Shown here piece by piece: positions 26,826 through 37,884 of a DNA stretch of 42,286 nucleotides. Below the pieces are notes generated by a model. That model ran no database searches. It saw only the letters and a program-made list of their open reading frames with translations, and had not been told where the DNA came from. This DNA comes from Candidatus Crickella caballi (GTDB lineage Bacteria; Bacillota; Clostridia; Peptostreptococcales; Anaerovoracaceae), in NCBI GenBank assembly GCA_018064665.1, contig JAGHUV010000007.1, forward strand, positions 1 to 42,286, given 5' to 3'. The stretch's first letter is position 1; every line of letters begins with the position of its first letter. The position numbers and the translations under genes are program-made.

Positions 26826-28070
26826 ATGGCAGAATTTGAAATGAACCCTAATGTTGCAGAAGAAATGACTAGCACACTGACTGAAAATGTAGCAGAAGAG
26901 ATCAAGGCTGTTTCCGAGCAGGCTGCAGCAATCGATCCAATGCCTGTACTTGATGTAGATACTAAGGTTGACGAGGCAGCACTTCAGAGCGCAACTAATT
27001 TCTCAGCAGATGAAATGGCACAGATCAAGGCTGTTGCAGAGAAGATCGACATTTCAGATACAACTACTGTAATGAGCTTCGGTGCAAGTGCACAGAAGAA
27101 GGTTGCAGATTTCGCTGACGGTGCACTTGAGAGCGTACGCGGCAAGGATATGGGAGAAACAGGACAGGTGCTTTCCGCACTGCTTGTTGAGCTCAGAACT
27201 AATGATGAAGATAAGAAGGGCTTCCTTGGCAAGATTTTCTCAAAGGGATCAAGAAAGTTTGAGGAGCTGAAGGCTCAGTACAGCTCAACAGAGGCTAATA
27301 TCGACAGACTCGTAGGCGTTCTCGAAGGTCATGAGACTCAGCTGCAGAAGGACATCGCTCAGCTGGATAAGCTCTATGATAAGAACAAGCTTTACTTCAA
27401 GGAAGTATCAATGTACATCGAAGCCGGAAAGCTTGCTATCGAGAAAGCTAAGACAGGTAAGCTGGTTGAGCTCCAGGAGAAGGCAAAGCAGACTAATGAT
27501 GCTGCAGATGCCCAGGAAGCTCAGGACTATGCAGATATGATCACAAGATTCGAGAAGAAGCTCTATGATCTCGAACTCAGCAGAACAGTATGCCTGCAGT
27601 CCGCACCTGAGATCAGAATGATCCAGAACAATGACACTATCATGTATGAGAAGATTCAGTCCACTATCATCAACGTAATTCCTATGTGGAAGACTCAGAT
27701 GGTTCTGGCTCTGAACAACTATCACACAGAGCAGGCTATCAAGGCAGAGAATGCTGTTACAGATGCTACTAACGATATGCTCAGAAAGAATGCAGAAATG
27801 CTCCACCAGAGCTCAGTTGCTGCTGCTGAGGCAAGCGAGAGAGGTATCGTAGATATCGAAACTCTTCAGGAGACTAACAATCAGCTCATCAGCGCTCTCG
27901 ATGAGATCCAGCAGATTCAGGAAAACGGCAAGGTTGCAAGAGCAACAGCTGAGAAGGAACTCGGAAGAATCGAGCAGGAGCTCAAGGAGAAGATGCTGGC
28001 AACAGCAAGCAATGCAGGCAAGAGCGTAGAGGAGATTCTCGAAGAAAGAGAGCTCCAGACACAGAACTAA
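26826..28070 (+). CDS. telA: TelA/YaaN-type toxic anion resistance protein
   Basis: The 414-aa, strongly helical cytoplasmic protein fits the TelA family (KlaA/YaaN/YceH), linked to tellurite and membrane-active stress resistance. Recognisable parts are GFLGKIFSKGSRKFEELKAQY in pieces, LQKDIAQLDKLYDKN, and the long SAPEIRMIQNNDTIMYEKIQ and VIPMWKTQMVLALNNY region, which is well conserved in the family. A strong AAGGAGG site precedes the ATG. It follows the XpaC-like gene by 74 bp; that gap contains two small AGCTC/GAGCT hairpins. The xpaC-telA pairing is known from Bacillus. The biochemical role is not established. Confidence 0.9.
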   Translation: MAEFEMNPNVAEEMTSTLTENVAEEIKAVSEQAAAIDPMPVLDVDTKVDEAALQSATNFSADEMAQIKAVAEKIDISDTTTVMSFGASAQKKVADFADGALESVRGKDMGETGQVLSALLVELRTNDEDKKGFLGKIFSKGSRKFEELKAQYSSTEANIDRLVGVLEGHETQLQKDIAQLDKLYDKNKLYFKEVSMYIEAGKLAIEKAKTGKLVELQEKAKQTNDAADAQEAQDYADMITRFEKKLYDLELSRTVCLQSAPEIRMIQNNDTIMYEKIQSTIINVIPMWKTQMVLALNNYHTEQAIKAENAVTDATNDMLRKNAEMLHQSSVAAAEASERGIVDIETLQETNNQLISALDEIQQIQENGKVARATAEKELGRIEQELKEKMLATASNAGKSVEEILEERELQTQN

Positions 28071-28085
28071 GAATATATAAGCACT

Positions 28086-29096
28086 ATGGAGAGATTCAGA
28101 AAGAGCCAGCTGTTGCTGGCTCTAACTGTATTATTAATACTATTACTGACGTCCTGTTCTTTTATAGATGAGAACGGGAATTTCAGCCTGCACAAATCTA
28201 CCGAGCAATCAAGCGAGGTCACGGCCGGTAACAGCAGTGACAACAGCAGCATAACGAATTATGATGAGCTTGACAGGGCGAATCCACCTGTGTATGACGG
28301 CAATAATTATGTAACGATTAACGGTAATATCCCTGAATTCAGTAAGGACATGTTGAGCGAGGCGGGGCTGATTGTGTCAGAGAAAGGGAAATGGCGCACG
28401 TCTCAGGAGGGTGGAATCTTCTCGGCAGTAGATGGCAAGGCAGTCAAAGCCTACGAAGTATACGAAGAGCTCGACTCGCTCGGAAGATGCACGAAAGCCT
28501 ACGGTTGCTTTGGAAGAGAGACGATGCCTGAGGACGGTGAGGAGCGTGGCGATATATCGAGAATCAGGCCGAGTGGCTGGAAGTCCGGACAGAACTGGGA
28601 GCGATGCCATCTTGTTGCCTGGGCGATAAGCGCTGAGAATGCCAATGAGAGGAACCTGATTACAGGAACTCACTATCTTAATTATGACGGCATGAGGCCT
28701 TTTGAAGAGGCGGCAGAGTCGTATATGTACGGCAAGAATCATCATGTTTTGTACGAGGTGGAGCCTGTCTATATAGGGAAGAATCTCGTGGCAAGCGGCG
28801 TGCATATGCAGGCTGCATCGGTGGAGGACTGCGGCAAAAGCGTTTCGTGGAATGTCTATATGTTCAATGTCACCCCGAATGCAACTATTGACTACATGAC
28901 CGGCATCGTTACTACTGAGGAGCAGGCGACACAGGAAGCAAGACTCTACGTTCTGAACAAGAGAAGCGAAGTTTTTCACTACCCAAGCTGCGAAGGAGCA
29001 GCAAGCATTTCCTCAAAGAATCGCAAAGAAATAACTGCGACCAGAACCGAGCTGACAGGTAAGGGTTATACACCTTGCGGATATTGCCAGCCGTAA
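28086..29096 (+). CDS. surface lipoprotein DNA/RNA non-specific endonuclease with C-terminal Cys/His domain
   Basis: The 336-aa protein starts with a lipoprotein signal (hydrophobic 8-21, lipobox LTSC, Cys24) and a Ser/Asn-rich spacer. Residues about 75-285 form a nuclease of the DNA/RNA non-specific type, with WERCHLVAWAI (His175 as general base) and ERNLITGTHYLN (Asn190 as likely metal ligand). The C-terminal ~45 residues (VFHYPSCE ... GYTPCGYCQP; His298, Cys302, Cys331, Cys334) look like the small Ada-type metal-binding domain found on several secreted nucleases. Likely role: degrade extracellular DNA at the cell surface. No clear ribosome site is seen 15 bp after telA, so translation may be coupled. 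Confidence 0.85.
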   Translation: MERFRKSQLLLALTVLLILLLTSCSFIDENGNFSLHKSTEQSSEVTAGNSSDNSSITNYDELDRANPPVYDGNNYVTINGNIPEFSKDMLSEAGLIVSEKGKWRTSQEGGIFSAVDGKAVKAYEVYEELDSLGRCTKAYGCFGRETMPEDGEERGDISRIRPSGWKSGQNWERCHLVAWAISAENANERNLITGTHYLNYDGMRPFEEAAESYMYGKNHHVLYEVEPVYIGKNLVASGVHMQAASVEDCGKSVSWNVYMFNVTPNATIDYMTGIVTTEEQATQEARLYVLNKRSEVFHYPSCEGAASISSKNRKEITATRTELTGKGYTPCGYCQP

Positions 29097-29108: not shown

Positions 29109-30281
29109 ATGATTTTAATTGATTTTCTGGATAATAATGTTAAGGATACACTGATACTCGTTAAGTCACTTCGTCCGAGCAAGTTCATTCTTGTTGCTGA
29201 CAGGGACGAAGACCGGATAAGAGTAGAGGGAATGACAGACGCATGCAGGATAATTGCAAGAGAAGACGGCTTTAGTATAGACACTAAAGTTATTGAGGTT
29301 GATCCAAGAGATGCACACGGAATTCTGGAAGCTGTGAAGCAAGAGGCAACAAAGAGCGGCGGAGAAATATACATCAACCTCTCCTGTGAGAACGATCTCA
29401 TGACTGCATGTGCATACAATATCTGCACTAAGACACCTGCAGATTCAAGCGACTGCTCGACACCGGTTTGCGTGGATACAAGAGCGGGCGTTGTAAGAAA
29501 TGTGGATACACTTGAAGCAATAACCGAGGTTAAGCATCTTAAAATTGATGACTATCTGGTGGCTGTCGGCGGCAAGGAGCTCGAAGGATCAAGAGATTTG
29601 CCTGACGAGTCGGAGTATGCTGCAGTATGCATGGTAGCAGAAGAGCTTTTCAAGAATGTATATGTGTGGAATATGATATGCACTTATATAGGAAAGCACT
29701 ATTCGCACGACCATATGGGGATTCGGATTCCGAGAGATCTGGAAAGCGAGGAAGGAAAAGAAAAGACCAGGACTATCGAGAATCAGCTCAAAGCCTTCTG
29801 CGATGGCGGAATTCTCGAACATGTGGAGGATGACAGGTACAGATTTACAAGCGAGAAGCACAAGGGCTGGATGGTTGTCTTTGGAGTATGGCTCGAGATG
29901 TATATTTACATCAAGCTCAAGCCGTATGTTGACGAGGTTCGACTCGGTCTGGTTGTAGACTGGGATGCAGGCGACGATTACGATACCAAGGACAATGAGC
30001 TTGATGTTGTTGCAATCAAGAACTCAAGACCTATTGTGATCAGCTGCAAGATGAGAATGCCGACCAAGGAGGACATCTATGAAGTCGGATATATCACAGA
30101 CCGCATATGCGGAAATGCAGGAAAGCCGGCAATAGCAACCACAGCAATCGTTAATCACAAGGAAACCTACAAGCCGGGTCTCTTCCCAAGATTCAAGAAG
30201 ATGGAAATAGGTCTTCTTGAAACTATCGACCTCAGGAAAAGTGACGATATATGCAAAGCGGCGTTCGAGGAATTGTTTTAG
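29109..30281 (+). CDS. orphan Card1-like protein: CARF-type N-domain plus DUF1887 nuclease
   Basis: The 390-aa protein resembles the DUF1887/Card1 group. Residues about 1-130 look like a Rossmann-type CARF domain (LDNNVKDTLILVKSLRPSKFILVAD). The ligand loop usually written NxTGGTKxM is YINLSCENDLMTA here, so the Gly-Gly is gone. A linking winged-helix region (about 165-250) leads to a PD-(D/E)XK nuclease: GVWLE at 259-263, NELDV at 296-300 and ISCK at 311-314 (likely catalytic Glu263/Asp299/Lys314). In type III CRISPR systems such enzymes are triggered by cyclic oligoadenylate. No cas gene or array lies in this window, so activator and target are unknown. Ribosome site GGAGAGAA. Confidence 0.75.
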   Translation: MILIDFLDNNVKDTLILVKSLRPSKFILVADRDEDRIRVEGMTDACRIIAREDGFSIDTKVIEVDPRDAHGILEAVKQEATKSGGEIYINLSCENDLMTACAYNICTKTPADSSDCSTPVCVDTRAGVVRNVDTLEAITEVKHLKIDDYLVAVGGKELEGSRDLPDESEYAAVCMVAEELFKNVYVWNMICTYIGKHYSHDHMGIRIPRDLESEEGKEKTRTIENQLKAFCDGGILEHVEDDRYRFTSEKHKGWMVVFGVWLEMYIYIKLKPYVDEVRLGLVVDWDAGDDYDTKDNELDVVAIKNSRPIVISCKMRMPTKEDIYEVGYITDRICGNAGKPAIATTAIVNHKETYKPGLFPRFKKMEIGLLETIDLRKSDDICKAAFEELF

Positions 30282-30293
30282 GCGGTGAATATA

Positions 30294-31145
30294 ATGAGAA
30301 TGATTTTGGAAAACGAGTTTACCTGGGACGGCACCTATGCGATCGTTGATGACCATGGTAACGAGAGATATACTATCGAAGCGGAGATGAGTGAGGATGT
30401 CCGTCGTGTCAAGCTTTATGCTTGTACATTAGACGAACTGAATGCACATTATGAAATAATCGACAGCGAGCCGGTGACTGATGAGGAGAAATTCGCAGTC
30501 GCTTCAGCACGTATCGACAAGAAATATGCATACATAGCAAGGGCTTGGGAAAACAGACGCATGAGTAAGTCAAGATATACCATTGAGATCGGTGGCAAGA
30601 TCATTGGTACGATGGACAGAAGCTATCTTGCTGAGGACGATGTGTATGATATTGAGCTTAAAGGCATGATGGTCAGCGGAAATGTTTATGACTGGAACTT
30701 CATTATAGTAAATAAGAAAGAGGAGATGGCTCATTCCATAGTCAGCGGAAACAGACTCTCTCTCGAATATGCTAATGATGAGTATGAAGAGACACTGGCC
30801 ATTCTCCTTGCAATTCTTTCCGGGCTTGCATATGACCTTAGAGTGACAAGTCTGCAGATCGCTTCGGGCAAGAGACTGAGCGAGCGAGAACCGATAAGTG
30901 TTCCTAAGTTTATGCGTGGCAGTGCACAAGGCTCGGGGCTTGAGGAAGCAATCGGAATGATAAGAGACGGAGTTGAAGCTGCCGGAAACTTTGGCCGCAA
31001 GGCTGTAAAGAGCGGTAACAAGGCTGTGATGAAGGGCAAGAAGGCTGTAAAAATAGGCAAGAAGGGGCTTGCTGCTGGAGAGAAAATAATCGAAAAGATA
31101 TTTCTGACTGAAGAAGATCGCAACCGACAAACTCAGAATGAATAA
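30294..31145 (+). CDS. LURP-one-related/scramblase-like (LOR) protein with basic heptad tail
   Basis: The 283-aa protein has the LOR/tubby-like pattern: KLxNEFTWDGTYAIVDDHGNERYTIEAE-type strand at the start (seen as NEFTWDGTYAIVDDHGNER), then repeated strand pairs (KSRYTIEIGGKIIGTMDR; VYDWNFIIVNKKEEMAHSI) and one hydrophobic helix near ETLAILLAILSGLAYDL. After a Pro-rich hinge, residues 236-263 hold four 7-residue repeats (KAVKSGN, KAVMKGK, KAVKIGK, KGLAAGE), a basic amphipathic segment that may bind membrane or nucleic acid. Start ATG 30294 is preferred over GTG 30285, with AGGCGGTG as a weak ribosome site. Function unknown; LOR proteins are linked to membrane lipids. Confidence 0.68.
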   Translation: MRMILENEFTWDGTYAIVDDHGNERYTIEAEMSEDVRRVKLYACTLDELNAHYEIIDSEPVTDEEKFAVASARIDKKYAYIARAWENRRMSKSRYTIEIGGKIIGTMDRSYLAEDDVYDIELKGMMVSGNVYDWNFIIVNKKEEMAHSIVSGNRLSLEYANDEYEETLAILLAILSGLAYDLRVTSLQIASGKRLSEREPISVPKFMRGSAQGSGLEEAIGMIRDGVEAAGNFGRKAVKSGNKAVMKGKKAVKIGKKGLAAGEKIIEKIFLTEEDRNRQTQNE

Positions 31146-31147
31146 GT

Positions 31148-31222
31148 CGAGGGCGAATGCCTGCGAATCGTAGCCGATAATGGCTTGACGAGGGCGAGCG
31201 TCTGCGAATTGCAGCCGATAAT
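31148..31222 (+). repeat. two 34-bp imperfect direct repeats between LOR and ansA
   Basis: Copies at 31148-31181 and 31189-31222 (period 41) share CGAGGGCGA, TGCGAAT and AGCCGATAAT. Each copy can form a small hairpin, CTGCG-aat-CGTAG in the first and CTGC-gaatt-GCAG in the second, so the differences keep the pairing. The first copy begins 3 bp after the LOR stop codon. Confidence 0.75.
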
Positions 31223-31268
31223 TTTTGTTGGAAATGGGCGTCTGCATGTAAGGTATAGGAAAGAAAGT

Positions 31269-32279
31269 ATGAACAGCAAGAGAATACTGATTATATATAC
31301 GGGCGGCACCATAGGAATGGTGGCAACTGAAAAGGGCTATGCTCCTGAGAAGGAGCGTTTTCATAAACTGCTTGGTGAGATCCCGGAGCTTAAGGCTGAA
31401 TCAATGCCGGAATGGGATATAGTGGACATGGATCCTCTGCTGGATTCTACTAATGTTGCCGTGGAAGAATGGAACGACATCGCTGAGGTGATTGCGGACA
31501 GCTATGATAAATATGACGGCTTTGTGGTTCTTCATGGAACGGATACCATGGCATATACCGCGAGTGCGCTTTCTTTCATGCTTGAAGGAAACAGTAAGCC
31601 GGTGGTTCTGACCGGAAGTCAGATCCCGCTTTGTGAGATAAGAAATGATGCAAGAGATAATCTGATCACAGCAATCATGGTAGCGGCACAGGGTGTGGTA
31701 AAGGAGGTCTGTCTGTATTTTGGCGGCAGCCTGCTGAGAGGCAATCGCTCGATGAAGAAATCGGCGGATGGACTTATTGCCTTTGATTCGCCTAATTATC
31801 CGCATCTGATGGATGCTGCGATTACCATCAAATACAATTACAATAATCTGCTCAAGCCTGAAGAGGGAAGGTTCAGACTTAGAAAGCTTCAAAATATTCC
31901 TATCGCTGTTCTCAAGGTGTTCCCGGGGATTCATTTTGAGTTGTTCGAGGGAATTATGACTGAGAAGCTGAAGGGGATGGTTATAGAGACCTTTGGCTCA
32001 GGAAATATGCCGGAGAGGGGCGGAAAGCTGCTTCCTTTGATCAGGAAAGCCGCTGACCACGGCACTGTGCTGACTATCTGTACACAGTGCCCGCAAGGGA
32101 CGGTGTCCCTTGGCGCCTACGAGGTATCCAACAGCCTGAAGCTCGCAGGCGCAGTCAGCGGCCTGAATATGACAACCGAAGCAGCAGTTGCCAAGCTGTA
32201 CTACCTGTTCAGCTGCGGATATACAGAAAGTGAAATCAAAGAGCTGATGGAGACAAACCTCAGAGGTGAGATGGGATAG
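31269..32279 (+). CDS. ansA: type I L-asparaginase
   Basis: The 336-aa enzyme hydrolyses L-asparagine to aspartate and ammonia in the cytoplasm. The two active-site threonines are Thr14 (TGGTIG) and Thr91 followed by Asp92 (LHGTDTMAYTASAL), with the same numbering as E. coli AnsA, and the catalytic Lys lies in the YFGGSLLRGNRSMKKS region. No signal peptide is seen. Start ATG 31269 follows AGGAAAG; the frame is open upstream to 31185, but that part lies in the direct repeats. The stop codon sits inside a pentanucleotide repeat. It may or may not be in one transcript with the telA run (gap 123 bp, no terminator). Confidence 0.92.
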   Translation: MNSKRILIIYTGGTIGMVATEKGYAPEKERFHKLLGEIPELKAESMPEWDIVDMDPLLDSTNVAVEEWNDIAEVIADSYDKYDGFVVLHGTDTMAYTASALSFMLEGNSKPVVLTGSQIPLCEIRNDARDNLITAIMVAAQGVVKEVCLYFGGSLLRGNRSMKKSADGLIAFDSPNYPHLMDAAITIKYNYNNLLKPEEGRFRLRKLQNIPIAVLKVFPGIHFELFEGIMTEKLKGMVIETFGSGNMPERGGKLLPLIRKAADHGTVLTICTQCPQGTVSLGAYEVSNSLKLAGAVSGLNMTTEAAVAKLYYLFSCGYTESEIKELMETNLRGEMG

Positions 32280-32741: not shown

Positions 32742-32747
32742 TCTTCA

Positions 32748-32833
32748 ATAGCCGGCGGTACATAGATAGCGGCGGTACATAAATAGCCGGCATTACATAG
32801 ATAGCCGGCGTTGCATAGTCAGTCGGCACTACC
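32748..32833. repeat. tandem 17-18-bp repeats reaching into the end of uvrB
   Basis: Four good copies of ATAGCCGGC(G/A)(G/T)T(A/G)CATA(G/A) lie at 32748-32765, 32766-32782 (one base shorter), 32783-32800 and 32801-32818. A degenerate fifth (32819-32833) covers the uvrB stop codon region. Each unit has a GCCGGC-type palindrome. Not a CRISPR: there are no spacers. Confidence 0.85.
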
Positions 32834-34945: not shown

Positions 34946-37792
34946 ATGGCAATGGAAAAGAATATTATTATCAAAGGTGCATGTGAGCACAATCTTAAGA
35001 ATATCGATGTAACAATTCCTCGTGATTGCATGGTGGTCCTGACAGGACTGAGCGGCTCGGGCAAATCTTCGCTTGCCTTCGACACGATTTACGCAGAAGG
35101 CCAGAAGAAATACGTGGAGTCGCTGTCTTCGTATGCGCGCCAGTTCCTGGGACTTATGAAGAAACCGGATGTGCAGCTCATCGAGGGACTTTCACCTGCA
35201 ATAAGCATTGATCAGAAGACAACCAACAAGAATCCGAGATCTACTGTCGGAACAGTAACGGAAATTTATGACTATCTGCGTCTTCTGTATGCTCGTATCG
35301 GAATCCCTCACTGTCCTGTCTGCGGCAGAGAGATAAGCAGTCAGTCGGTTGACAGCATAGTGGGCCAGATTCAGGCGCGGGGCGAGGGAACAAGGGTAAC
35401 CGTTCTTGCTCCGGTAATTCGCGGACGCAAGGGCGAGCACAAAGCGGTACTCGAACGCATAGGCCGCGACGGCTTTACCAGAGTCAGAGTCGATGGCGAG
35501 ATGCTGAGGCTTGATGAGAGTGAAATTAAGCTTGAGAAAAACAACAAGCATACTATAGAAATAGTTGTAGACAGAATTGTTATCAGAGAAGACAATCGCG
35601 GACGTATTGCAGAGGCCGTTGAGCTTGCAATAACGGAAGGCGAAGGCATCTGCAACGTGATGTACGGAGAGGGCGACGAAGAGACTTTTTCAACAAAGCT
35701 TTCGTGCCCTGAACACGGCGTAAGCATCGAAGAGATGGAGCCTCGCGTGTTCTCCTTCAACAGCCCGTATGGTGCCTGCGAGAATTGCAGCGGACTCGGC
35801 TTCACACTTGGTATTGAGGATCGCTCGGTAGTGGCTGATGAGGACAAGAGCATAATTGAGGGTGCAATGGGAAATGTTTTTTCCACTCTTGATGCGATGG
35901 GCTGGTACCGTCAGATGATGCAGAGACTTGCTGAGAATCACGGTACCAATCTGGATGTGCCTTACAAGGATCTGCCGACTGATTTCCTTGACGAGCTTCT
36001 GCATGGAACAGGAGAGCGCAAGCTTAAGTACATATACAAGAGTAAGTCCGGCAAGGTTTCACACATGAATCATACCTTCGAGGGCATTATCCCGGGTCTT
36101 ATGAGAAGATGGGGAGAAACCAACTCGGACTACATCCGCGAGAAGATCGGAGACCTCATGACAGAGACGGAGTGTCCTGTCTGCAAGGGCAGGAAGCTCA
36201 AGGACACGGTTCTCGCCGTGACTGTCGGAGGCAAGAATATTATCGAAGTAACGGATATGTCGGTTAAACAGGCGGCACAGTTCTTCGATGAGCTTGAATC
36301 CCAACTCAACGACAGGGAGAAGACGATAAGCAAAATGATTCTCAAAGAGGTCAGGGCTCGACTTAAGTTCCTGCAGGATGTCGGACTTGGATATCTTACG
36401 CTTTCCCGTACAGCCGGTACTCTTTCGGGTGGAGAGTCACAGAGAATCAGGCTTGCAACCCAGATAGGCTCGGGTCTCGTCGGAGTGCTGTATATTCTCG
36501 ATGAGCCGTCGATAGGTCTTCACCAGAGAGACAACGACAAGCTGCTGGCTTCACTTCGCAATCTGGCAGACATGGGAAATACTCTCATAATAGTTGAGCA
36601 TGATGAAGACACTATGTATGCCGCAGACCATATTATAGATATAGGTCCGGGCGCCGGAGTCAACGGAGGAGAGCTCATTGCACAGGGTACCGTTGATGAT
36701 ATCAAAGCGTGTCCTGAATCGATAACGGGACAGTTCCTGTCAGGCAAGCGTTCCATTATCGTGCCTGAAGCAAGACGCGAAGGCAACGGCAAATATCTCG
36801 AGATTATAGGTGCGGCTGAACACAATCTTAAGAATATAGATGTCAGGATTCCGGCAGGAAAGCTCGTATGCGTTACGGGTGTCTCGGGCTCCGGAAAATC
36901 CTCGCTGGTTAATGAAATCATCTACAAGGGCGTTGCTCGCGAGACCAATCACCTCCAGGACAAGCCGGGAAGGTTCCGCAAAATCAAGGGAATCGAGAAT
37001 TTTGACAAGGTGATAGATATTGACCAGTCGCCTATAGGCAAAACACCGAGGTCCAATCCGGCAACATATACCGGAATGTTCACGCATATACGTGCTCTTT
37101 TTGCAGAGCTTCCTGAGGCTAAAATCAGAGGCTACAGTCAAGGCAGATTTTCCTTCAATGTGAAGGGTGGACGCTGTGAGCACTGCAACGGAGACGGGAT
37201 CATCAAGGTCGAAATGAACTTCCTTCCTGATGTTTTCGTTCCTTGCGAGGTATGCGGTGGAACCAGATTTAATCACGAGACACTCGAGGTCAAATACAAG
37301 GGCAAGAATATTTCGGAGGTCCTCAATATGACGGTTGCAGAGGCGCTGCCGTTCTTCGAGAATCATCCGAGCATACACAGATACCTCAAGACATTGGACG
37401 ATGTAGGTCTTTCATACATCAGCCTCGGACAGCCTTCAACGCAGCTGTCGGGAGGAGAGGCACAGCGAATCAAGCTTGCAACTGAGCTGTCAAAGCGAAG
37501 CACTGGCAAGACGCTCTATATCCTGGATGAGCCGACAACCGGACTTCATTTTGCGGATGTCGAGAAGCTTCTATATGTGCTTAATCGTCTCGTTGACGAG
37601 GGTAACACAGTAGTTGTGATCGAACACAATCTGGACGTCGTCAAACAGGCAGACTGGATCATTGATCTCGGTCCTGAGGGCGGCGACGACGGAGGTACGA
37701 TCGTGGCTGTCGGAACGCCGGAGGATATTGCCGGGGTGGAGGCATCCTATACGGGACAATATCTGAAGAGGCTGCTGAAAGGGACCGATTAG
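34946..37792 (+). CDS. uvrA: excinuclease ABC subunit UvrA
   Basis: The 948-aa protein is the damage-recognition ATPase of nucleotide excision repair. It has two ABC modules: the first with [21 protein letters not shown] and signature [16 protein letters not shown], the second with [15 protein letters not shown] and [16 protein letters not shown]. Three zinc modules show CPVC pairs (HCPVCG, CPVCKG, and CEHCNGDG with CEVCGG). The likely real start may be ATG 34952 ([17 protein letters not shown]) since no ribosome site precedes either ATG and the -10 box is so close. The last nine codons are part of a 29-bp duplicated segment. Divergent from uvrB. Confidence 0.97.
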
Positions 37793-37884
37793 TATGTTCT
37801 CTGAAGAGGCTGCTGAAAGGGACCGATTTCGAATAATAGGCTGCTGATTTGTACTATCACATAAGAGGATGCTGAACGGGACTT
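37762..37884 (+). repeat. duplicated uvrA 3' end with decayed further copies
   Basis: A perfect 29-bp direct repeat (37762-37790 and 37800-37828, period 38) copies the last codons of uvrA just past its stop codon. Two weaker echoes follow: GGCTGCTGATT near 37839 and AAGAGGATGCTGAACGGGAC at 37863-37882. It looks like stepwise tandem duplication and decay. No terminator is visible in this 190-bp gap. Confidence 0.8.

Follow-up and report, generated by a model that had tools for sequence, protein, structure and literature searches.

The gene at 29109..30281 of the window (the whole 42,286-nucleotide stretch of DNA analysed, from the gut bacterium Candidatus Crickella caballi) encodes a CARF-PD-(D/E)xK nuclease which, on balance, we regard as a chromosomal protein that has left type III CRISPR, with its sensor rewired and, in the rewired form, conserved. 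A more far-reaching version of this proposal is put forward tentatively: that Clostridia have a CRISPR-independent, chromosomally fixed CARF pathway in which a CARF nuclease whose active site is permuted responds to a cellular second messenger not made by Cas10, and that in one genus the ligand loop of the sensor was remodelled on two occasions to suit a different ligand. By analogy with Can2, the protein would work as a homodimer, and binding of a small ligand by its paired CARF pockets would open a metal-dependent nuclease cleft; the pathway might be one of phage defence or of DNA stress and repair.

CARF domains have been studied mainly as receivers of cyclic oligoadenylates made by Cas10. 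CARF homologues are nevertheless abundant outside CRISPR-Cas (PMC12669027), and CARF genes that are unlinked to CRISPR exist in each family (PMC4012209). Orphan DUF1887 proteins are already in print, a published example with an altered pocket being VC1899 (PMC7969007), and the window protein is a variant of this known kind of protein. What it would add, if the proposed reading is correct, is a conserved lineage with a rewired and retained pocket, mostly in genomes that yielded no Cas10, and with it a route to a non-CRISPR CARF ligand and to the role of orphan DUF1887 proteins such as VC1899.

The CARF nuclease and its active site

The window contig belongs to a 1.449 Mb assembly (94.26% complete; family Anaerovoracaceae). 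An initial annotation, made from the window sequence, had called the protein DUF1887/Card1-like with a CARF N-terminal domain, and that identification is borne out. Pfam PF09002 (Card1_endonuc) scores 32.8 bits against a curated cut-off of 26.4, and the PADLOC profile CARF4--CARF_PDDEXK (PDLC01895), which carries no function, matches near full-length (residues 2-376, E 9.9e-32). Structure comparison with the AF2 model (mean pLDDT 86.8) finds VC1899, Can2, 8bao, Cdn1 and Card1 as the nearest solved structures. The CARF4 profile and the alignment of CARF structures over residues ~1-134 identify the N-terminal part as a CARF Rossmann fold. The nearest named relatives are encoded by MAGs of Mogibacterium sp. 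(82% identity) and Candidatus Crickella merdequi (51%). Features of the gene are:

29109..30281, + strand: CARF-PD-(D/E)xK nuclease, 390 aa (ORF, PF09002, PADLOC profile, AF2 model)
29109..29543, + strand: CARF (sensor) part, residues 1-145; D8 and D31 are acidic at the Can2 S19 and T42 positions
29370..29414, + strand: remodelled ligand loop, residues 88-102, 15 codons, YINLSCENDLMTACA
29895..29897, + strand: E263 (of WLE), invariant in 18/18 rows of alignment A2
29997..30005, + strand: E297-x-D299, counterpart of Can2 E276/D278 (Can2 residues from PMC7969007)
30042..30050, + strand: S312-C-K314, Ser replacing the Glu of ExK
30081..30083, + strand: E325, on the helix after the Lys strand, proposed relocated acidic residue

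A scan of the window for promoters and terminators gave scores no better than those of shuffled sequences.

The motifs WLE (E263), NELD (296-299) and ISCK (311-314) are present as first described. ISCK is not, however, a Card1/Can2 motif: Can2, VC1899, 8bao, Cdn1 and Card1 all read ECK where the window protein reads SCK, so that the ExK glutamate is missing. In TsuCan2 an E302A/K304A variant is inactive (PMC7969007), and the two-residue spacing suggests that E302 and K304 are the ExK residues. The active site of the window protein is probably permuted, consisting of E263, E297, D299 and K314 with E325 in place of the ExK glutamate; in the AF2 model E325 lies on helix 320-337, which follows the Lys strand. 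Conservation is consistent with such an exchange. Among 54 aligned rows (65 less 11 duplicates), 50 of the 51 with Ser312 have Glu at 325, the exception (L030) combining Ser with Lys at 325, while none of the three with Glu312 does, position 325 being Lys or His; the pairing has a Fisher p of 0.0002, for rows that are related.

Restriction enzymes of the CCGG family are sequence-specific and are not known to carry a CARF domain, and the window protein is not a member. The likeness to these enzymes (NgoMIV, Cfr10I, AgeI; permuted PD...K...D/E), which place an acidic residue behind the Lys (PMC6344858), is one of active-site order: conservation and sequence order put an acidic residue of the window protein after the Lys, on the next helix. 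The authors of the Can2 study likened its nuclease to AgeI (PMC7969007). Among the literature matches listed, the phrase 'permuted active site' is not used with CARF, Can2 or Card1, which does not establish priority.

That this arrangement is peculiar to orphans is ruled out by its presence in Cas10-carrying genomes (L087, L089, L090, L093, L094 and L096). Judged from the aligned sequences, the Ser/Glu active site is a subfamily trait that is independent of orphan status. If real, the exchange would mark out a second catalytic class among the Card1-type nucleases, with members in Cas10-carrying genomes as well, and would lend itself to a simple mutational test. Two Ser/Glu rows lack the catalytic Lys. 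They come from Cas10 genomes (L097 in G470, L102 in G618) and have Ser or Thr in its place together with an intact-looking cA4 loop; from these substitutions, the two nucleases are possibly inactive.

Neighbourhood and distribution

The genes around the CARF nuclease are:

26826..28070, + strand: TelA-family protein, upstream; homologue upstream also in L058, L060 and L061
28086..29096, + strand: DNA/RNA non-specific endonuclease (PF13930, NS_2), lipoprotein-like by eye, ending 12 bases before the CARF gene
30285..31145, + strand: uncharacterised protein that begins with GTG, 3 bases beyond the stop codon of the CARF gene; L058 has a homologue at this position
31185..32279, + strand: type I asparaginase; downstream homologue also in L058 and in the g12 loci L064, L067 and L072
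32829..34844, - strand: uvrB (neighbourhood annotation)
34946..37792, + strand: uvrA (neighbourhood annotation)

Homologues of these genes occur in the same order in L058. Two small repeats accompany the uvr genes: four imperfect copies at a step of 17-18 bases just past the uvrB stop codon (32747-32823), and, at the uvrA 3' end (37762-37828), two identical 29-base copies with a start-to-start distance of 38 bases, the second lying beyond the stop codon. The NS_2 endonuclease is directly 5' of the CARF nuclease in three of five loci of the genus (window 28086-29096, L058:4198-5208, L059:1900-2823), and it is possible that the two form a functional pair.

In a 49-row tree, midpoint-rooted for drawing only, the window protein and 17 relatives group together (100/98) within a larger clade of 35 rows (97/93). 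The tree leaves out L089 and L101 (>480 aa), L092 (partial), and L025 and L029 (short). One relative, from a MAG (row L012, L070:1764-3083), has an insert of ~55-60 residues between its CARF and nuclease parts. Presence is patchy, with matches at E<=0.001 in 6/47 genomes of the window genus, one of them (G321) weak, and presence in 9/13 genomes of g12. With the window protein as query, no close relative was found in plasmids or phages (tblastn) or in viral contigs (pattern scan), searches that would miss distant ones; a mobile or phage origin is accordingly judged unlikely, and the gene looks chromosomal rather than like a mobile cassette, though patchy.

These surroundings bear on what the protein is for. 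The initial annotation suggested that it may act in a different defence or stress pathway; the surroundings do not demonstrate defence, the neighbours being of housekeeping kind and the two immediate ones without a PADLOC match. The protein might instead be a housekeeping nuclease of DNA repair or replication, its CARF part sensing DNA damage or a metabolic signal and its nuclease nicking DNA. Such a role would suit the dnaX-ybaB-recR-dtd homologues that lie upstream in five of nine g12 loci (L064, L066, L067, L069, L072; gene names Pfam-checked for L072), with pcrA and ligA further upstream in three of these five and a dtd homologue in 7/9. The short stretch with scpA-scpB that the CARF gene follows in L071, uvrB and uvrA two genes on in the window, and the resemblance of the Can2 nuclease to EndoMS (PMC7969007) point the same way. 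On the other hand, neighbours vary between genera, so that the association may be fortuitous: distant family members have metabolic neighbours by eye (thioesterase/AMP-ligase for L108 and L109, KUP/YitT-like for L112). Downstream in g12 lie a GNAT acetyltransferase (seven loci) and an asparaginase (three). Nor does the gene behave like a core repair gene, being absent from 4/13 g12 genomes, including two that are 99% complete and assembled into 1-2 contigs. We consider a housekeeping role in repair or replication rather unlikely.

The ligand pocket

In Can2, cA4 is held by Ser19, Thr42, Lys99 and Tyr118, with Lys99 gripping a phosphate (PMC7969007), and the CARF signature is given as [DN]x[ST]xxx[RK] (PMC4012209, section 6). 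The corresponding residues of the window protein are D8, D31, D96 and C121, three of the four thus being acidic (the match of D8 to Ser19 falls outside the local alignment with Can2 and rests on its position and on Asp9 of VC1899). With the cA4-holding residues replaced in this way, cA4 is probably not the ligand.

Two known systems frame this pocket. Can2 and Card1 (7bdv, 6wxw/6xl1) are cA4-activated type III effectors; in the window protein their Ser-Thr-Lys-Tyr contacts are replaced, the ExK Glu has become Ser with a Glu downstream, and no Cas10 was found in the genome. The orphan DUF1887 protein VC1899 of Vibrio cholerae (1XMX; 16% identity) is closer in kind. It has Asp9, Asp34, Arg96 and Val115 at the four cA4 positions and, according to PMC7969007, is not activated by cA4, being nearly inactive in vitro with a weak residual RNase activity that cA4 does not regulate. 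The window protein shares with it an Asp9/Asp34-like pocket (D8, D31) in a genome where no type III system was found; VC1899 differs in keeping ECK and Arg96, where the window protein has S312 and D96.

The altered loop, NLSCENDLMTA (residues 90-100), reads as first described. Its peculiarity to the window genus holds for the Gly-Gly and fails for the Lys, which is missing throughout the clade. Close relatives mostly have DxTGG(T/S) followed, in alignment to Can2, by E or D at the Lys99 position, and Lys or Arg is absent there from every row of alignment A2, so that sister genera already lack the basic residue that the CARF signature calls for. From the alignments, the alteration is one of two layers, with Lys absent clade-wide and the loss of Gly-Gly specific, within the clade, to the window genus. 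The second Gly is retained in 45 of 51 non-duplicate rows that cover the loop, the losses being five window-genus rows and L087. (L087, a member from the Cas10 genome G451, reads TCSK at the compared positions: Gly-Gly is gone and Lys is present.) The five rows with an altered loop group together as a clade (100/99) and fall into two Gly-Gly-less forms, NLSCEND in the window and L050/L058, and NIDA(D/E)HG in L002/L060, L051/L059 and L052/L061, each conserved in its own subclade. The strand-4 loop would thus have taken two new forms in this genus, each then kept, and this genus probably differs from its sister genera in the ligand or in how the ligand is handled.

Could the protein be the degenerate remnant of what was once a type III effector, now adrift and unused, with a decaying sensor, as has been suggested in print for VC1899? 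The lost loop motif, the faster divergence of the CARF part than of the nuclease (75% vs 91% identity when the two closest relatives are compared) and the patchy distribution in the genus would all fit. The loop codons tell against decay. Between the window protein and L050 (82% identical), codons 88-102 have 10 silent and no amino-acid differences, against 45 silent and 36 amino-acid differences across the remaining codons for residues 1-145 (Fisher p 0.005), which implies that the new loop is under constraint; codon counts stand in for dN/dS here, dS between the two closest relatives being saturated. Each loop type is conserved within its subclade, D31, D123, E263, E297, D299, S312, K314 and E325 are invariant in the 18 rows of alignment A2, and all five clade members from the genus have intact frames. 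Decay to a remnant is, on this evidence, improbable.

Cas10, CRISPR and other cyclases

The initial annotation saw no CRISPR array near the gene and called for a genome-wide search for cas10 and cyclic-nucleotide synthetases; neither array nor enzymes were found. None of the 13 families of direct repeats in the window shows array-like spacing, and the 94.26% complete genome yielded no Cas10 by PF22335 or by the PADLOC Cas10 model, and no RAMP, Cas1, SMODS or mCpol. Given the incomplete assembly, a type III locus may have escaped these searches. Fifteen close-clade carriers of the gene were tested in the same way. Cas10 (PADLOC model) with RAMPs was found in one, the Clostridia MAG G175, and Cas1 in four, two of them in the altered-loop genus, so that other CRISPR types are probably present in the Cas1-positive genomes. 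A CBASS cyclase as the source of the signal was rejected, SMODS being found in 0/15 carriers, as was a minimal-CRISPR-polymerase cyclase, mCpol also being found in 0/15, by a weak test whose control was positive in one of 14 genomes, below the cut-off.

Complete absence of Cas10 among carriers is ruled out by the Cas10d of G175, whose type III-D system is on a different contig from its relative of the window protein; that relative has an intact TGG loop. The locus (L084; contig C12, 50000-69999) comprises an RT-Cas1 fusion, Cas6, fused Cas7s, Cas5, Cas10d and a Csx1-type CARF-HEPN effector. In a family sample of 296 genomes a relative was found in 30 and Cas10 above cut-off (PF22335) in 20, with no genome on both lists; zero overlap is not unusual by chance (hypergeometric P 0.11), and the overlap is in fact at least one because the PF22335 search missed the Cas10d of G175. 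This model also matches in the E. coli control, and we infer that short matches at profile positions ~58-132 are GGDEF-like cyclases. Within the 35-row clade, Cas10 occurs in 2/32 searched genomes, those of G175 and of L100, the latter weakly placed (85/50); 16 of the 32 were searched by the less sensitive PF22335 only, as were all carriers beyond the 15, with L062, L073 and L074 left out.

The relation of the basic loop residue to Cas10 was followed in a phylum sample, in which PF09002 was found in 20/398 genomes and 18 rows were aligned (L092 without loop coverage; L104 and L105, the latter the same protein as L099, were left out of the loop and active-site alignment). Nine rows have Lys at the Can2 K99 position, and all nine genomes carry a near full-length Cas10; of the eight rows without it, two have Cas10 (L100 and L103), or four if the short partial matches in G534 and G607 are counted. 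The association (Fisher p 0.002 by the strict count) is descriptive, the rows being related. With exceptions on both sides, L085 having Arg and no Cas10 match and L100 having Glu yet adjoining a Cas10/RAMP locus, the tracking of Cas10 by the basic residue is a tendency. G175 and L100 also mean that a missing Lys is not enough to exclude a Cas10 product.

These same two cases are what would favour the window protein being a trans effector for a type III system that comes and goes, reading cyclic oligoadenylate from a Cas10 that is plasmid-borne, present in other strains or encoded in the 6% of the genome that the assembly lacks. Such a role is very improbable given Cas10 with RAMPs in only one of 15 close carriers, three acidic residues among the four that should hold cA4, and replacement of the Gly-Gly loop in 5/5 members of the genus clade. 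A signal other than a type III product, as first proposed, is the most economical reading.

The surroundings of L100 are those of L107:3807-11386, where a DxTGGE-type CARF nuclease directly adjoins the Cas10/RAMP locus, followed by leuS; in this context a pocket without Lys may read some Cas10 products.
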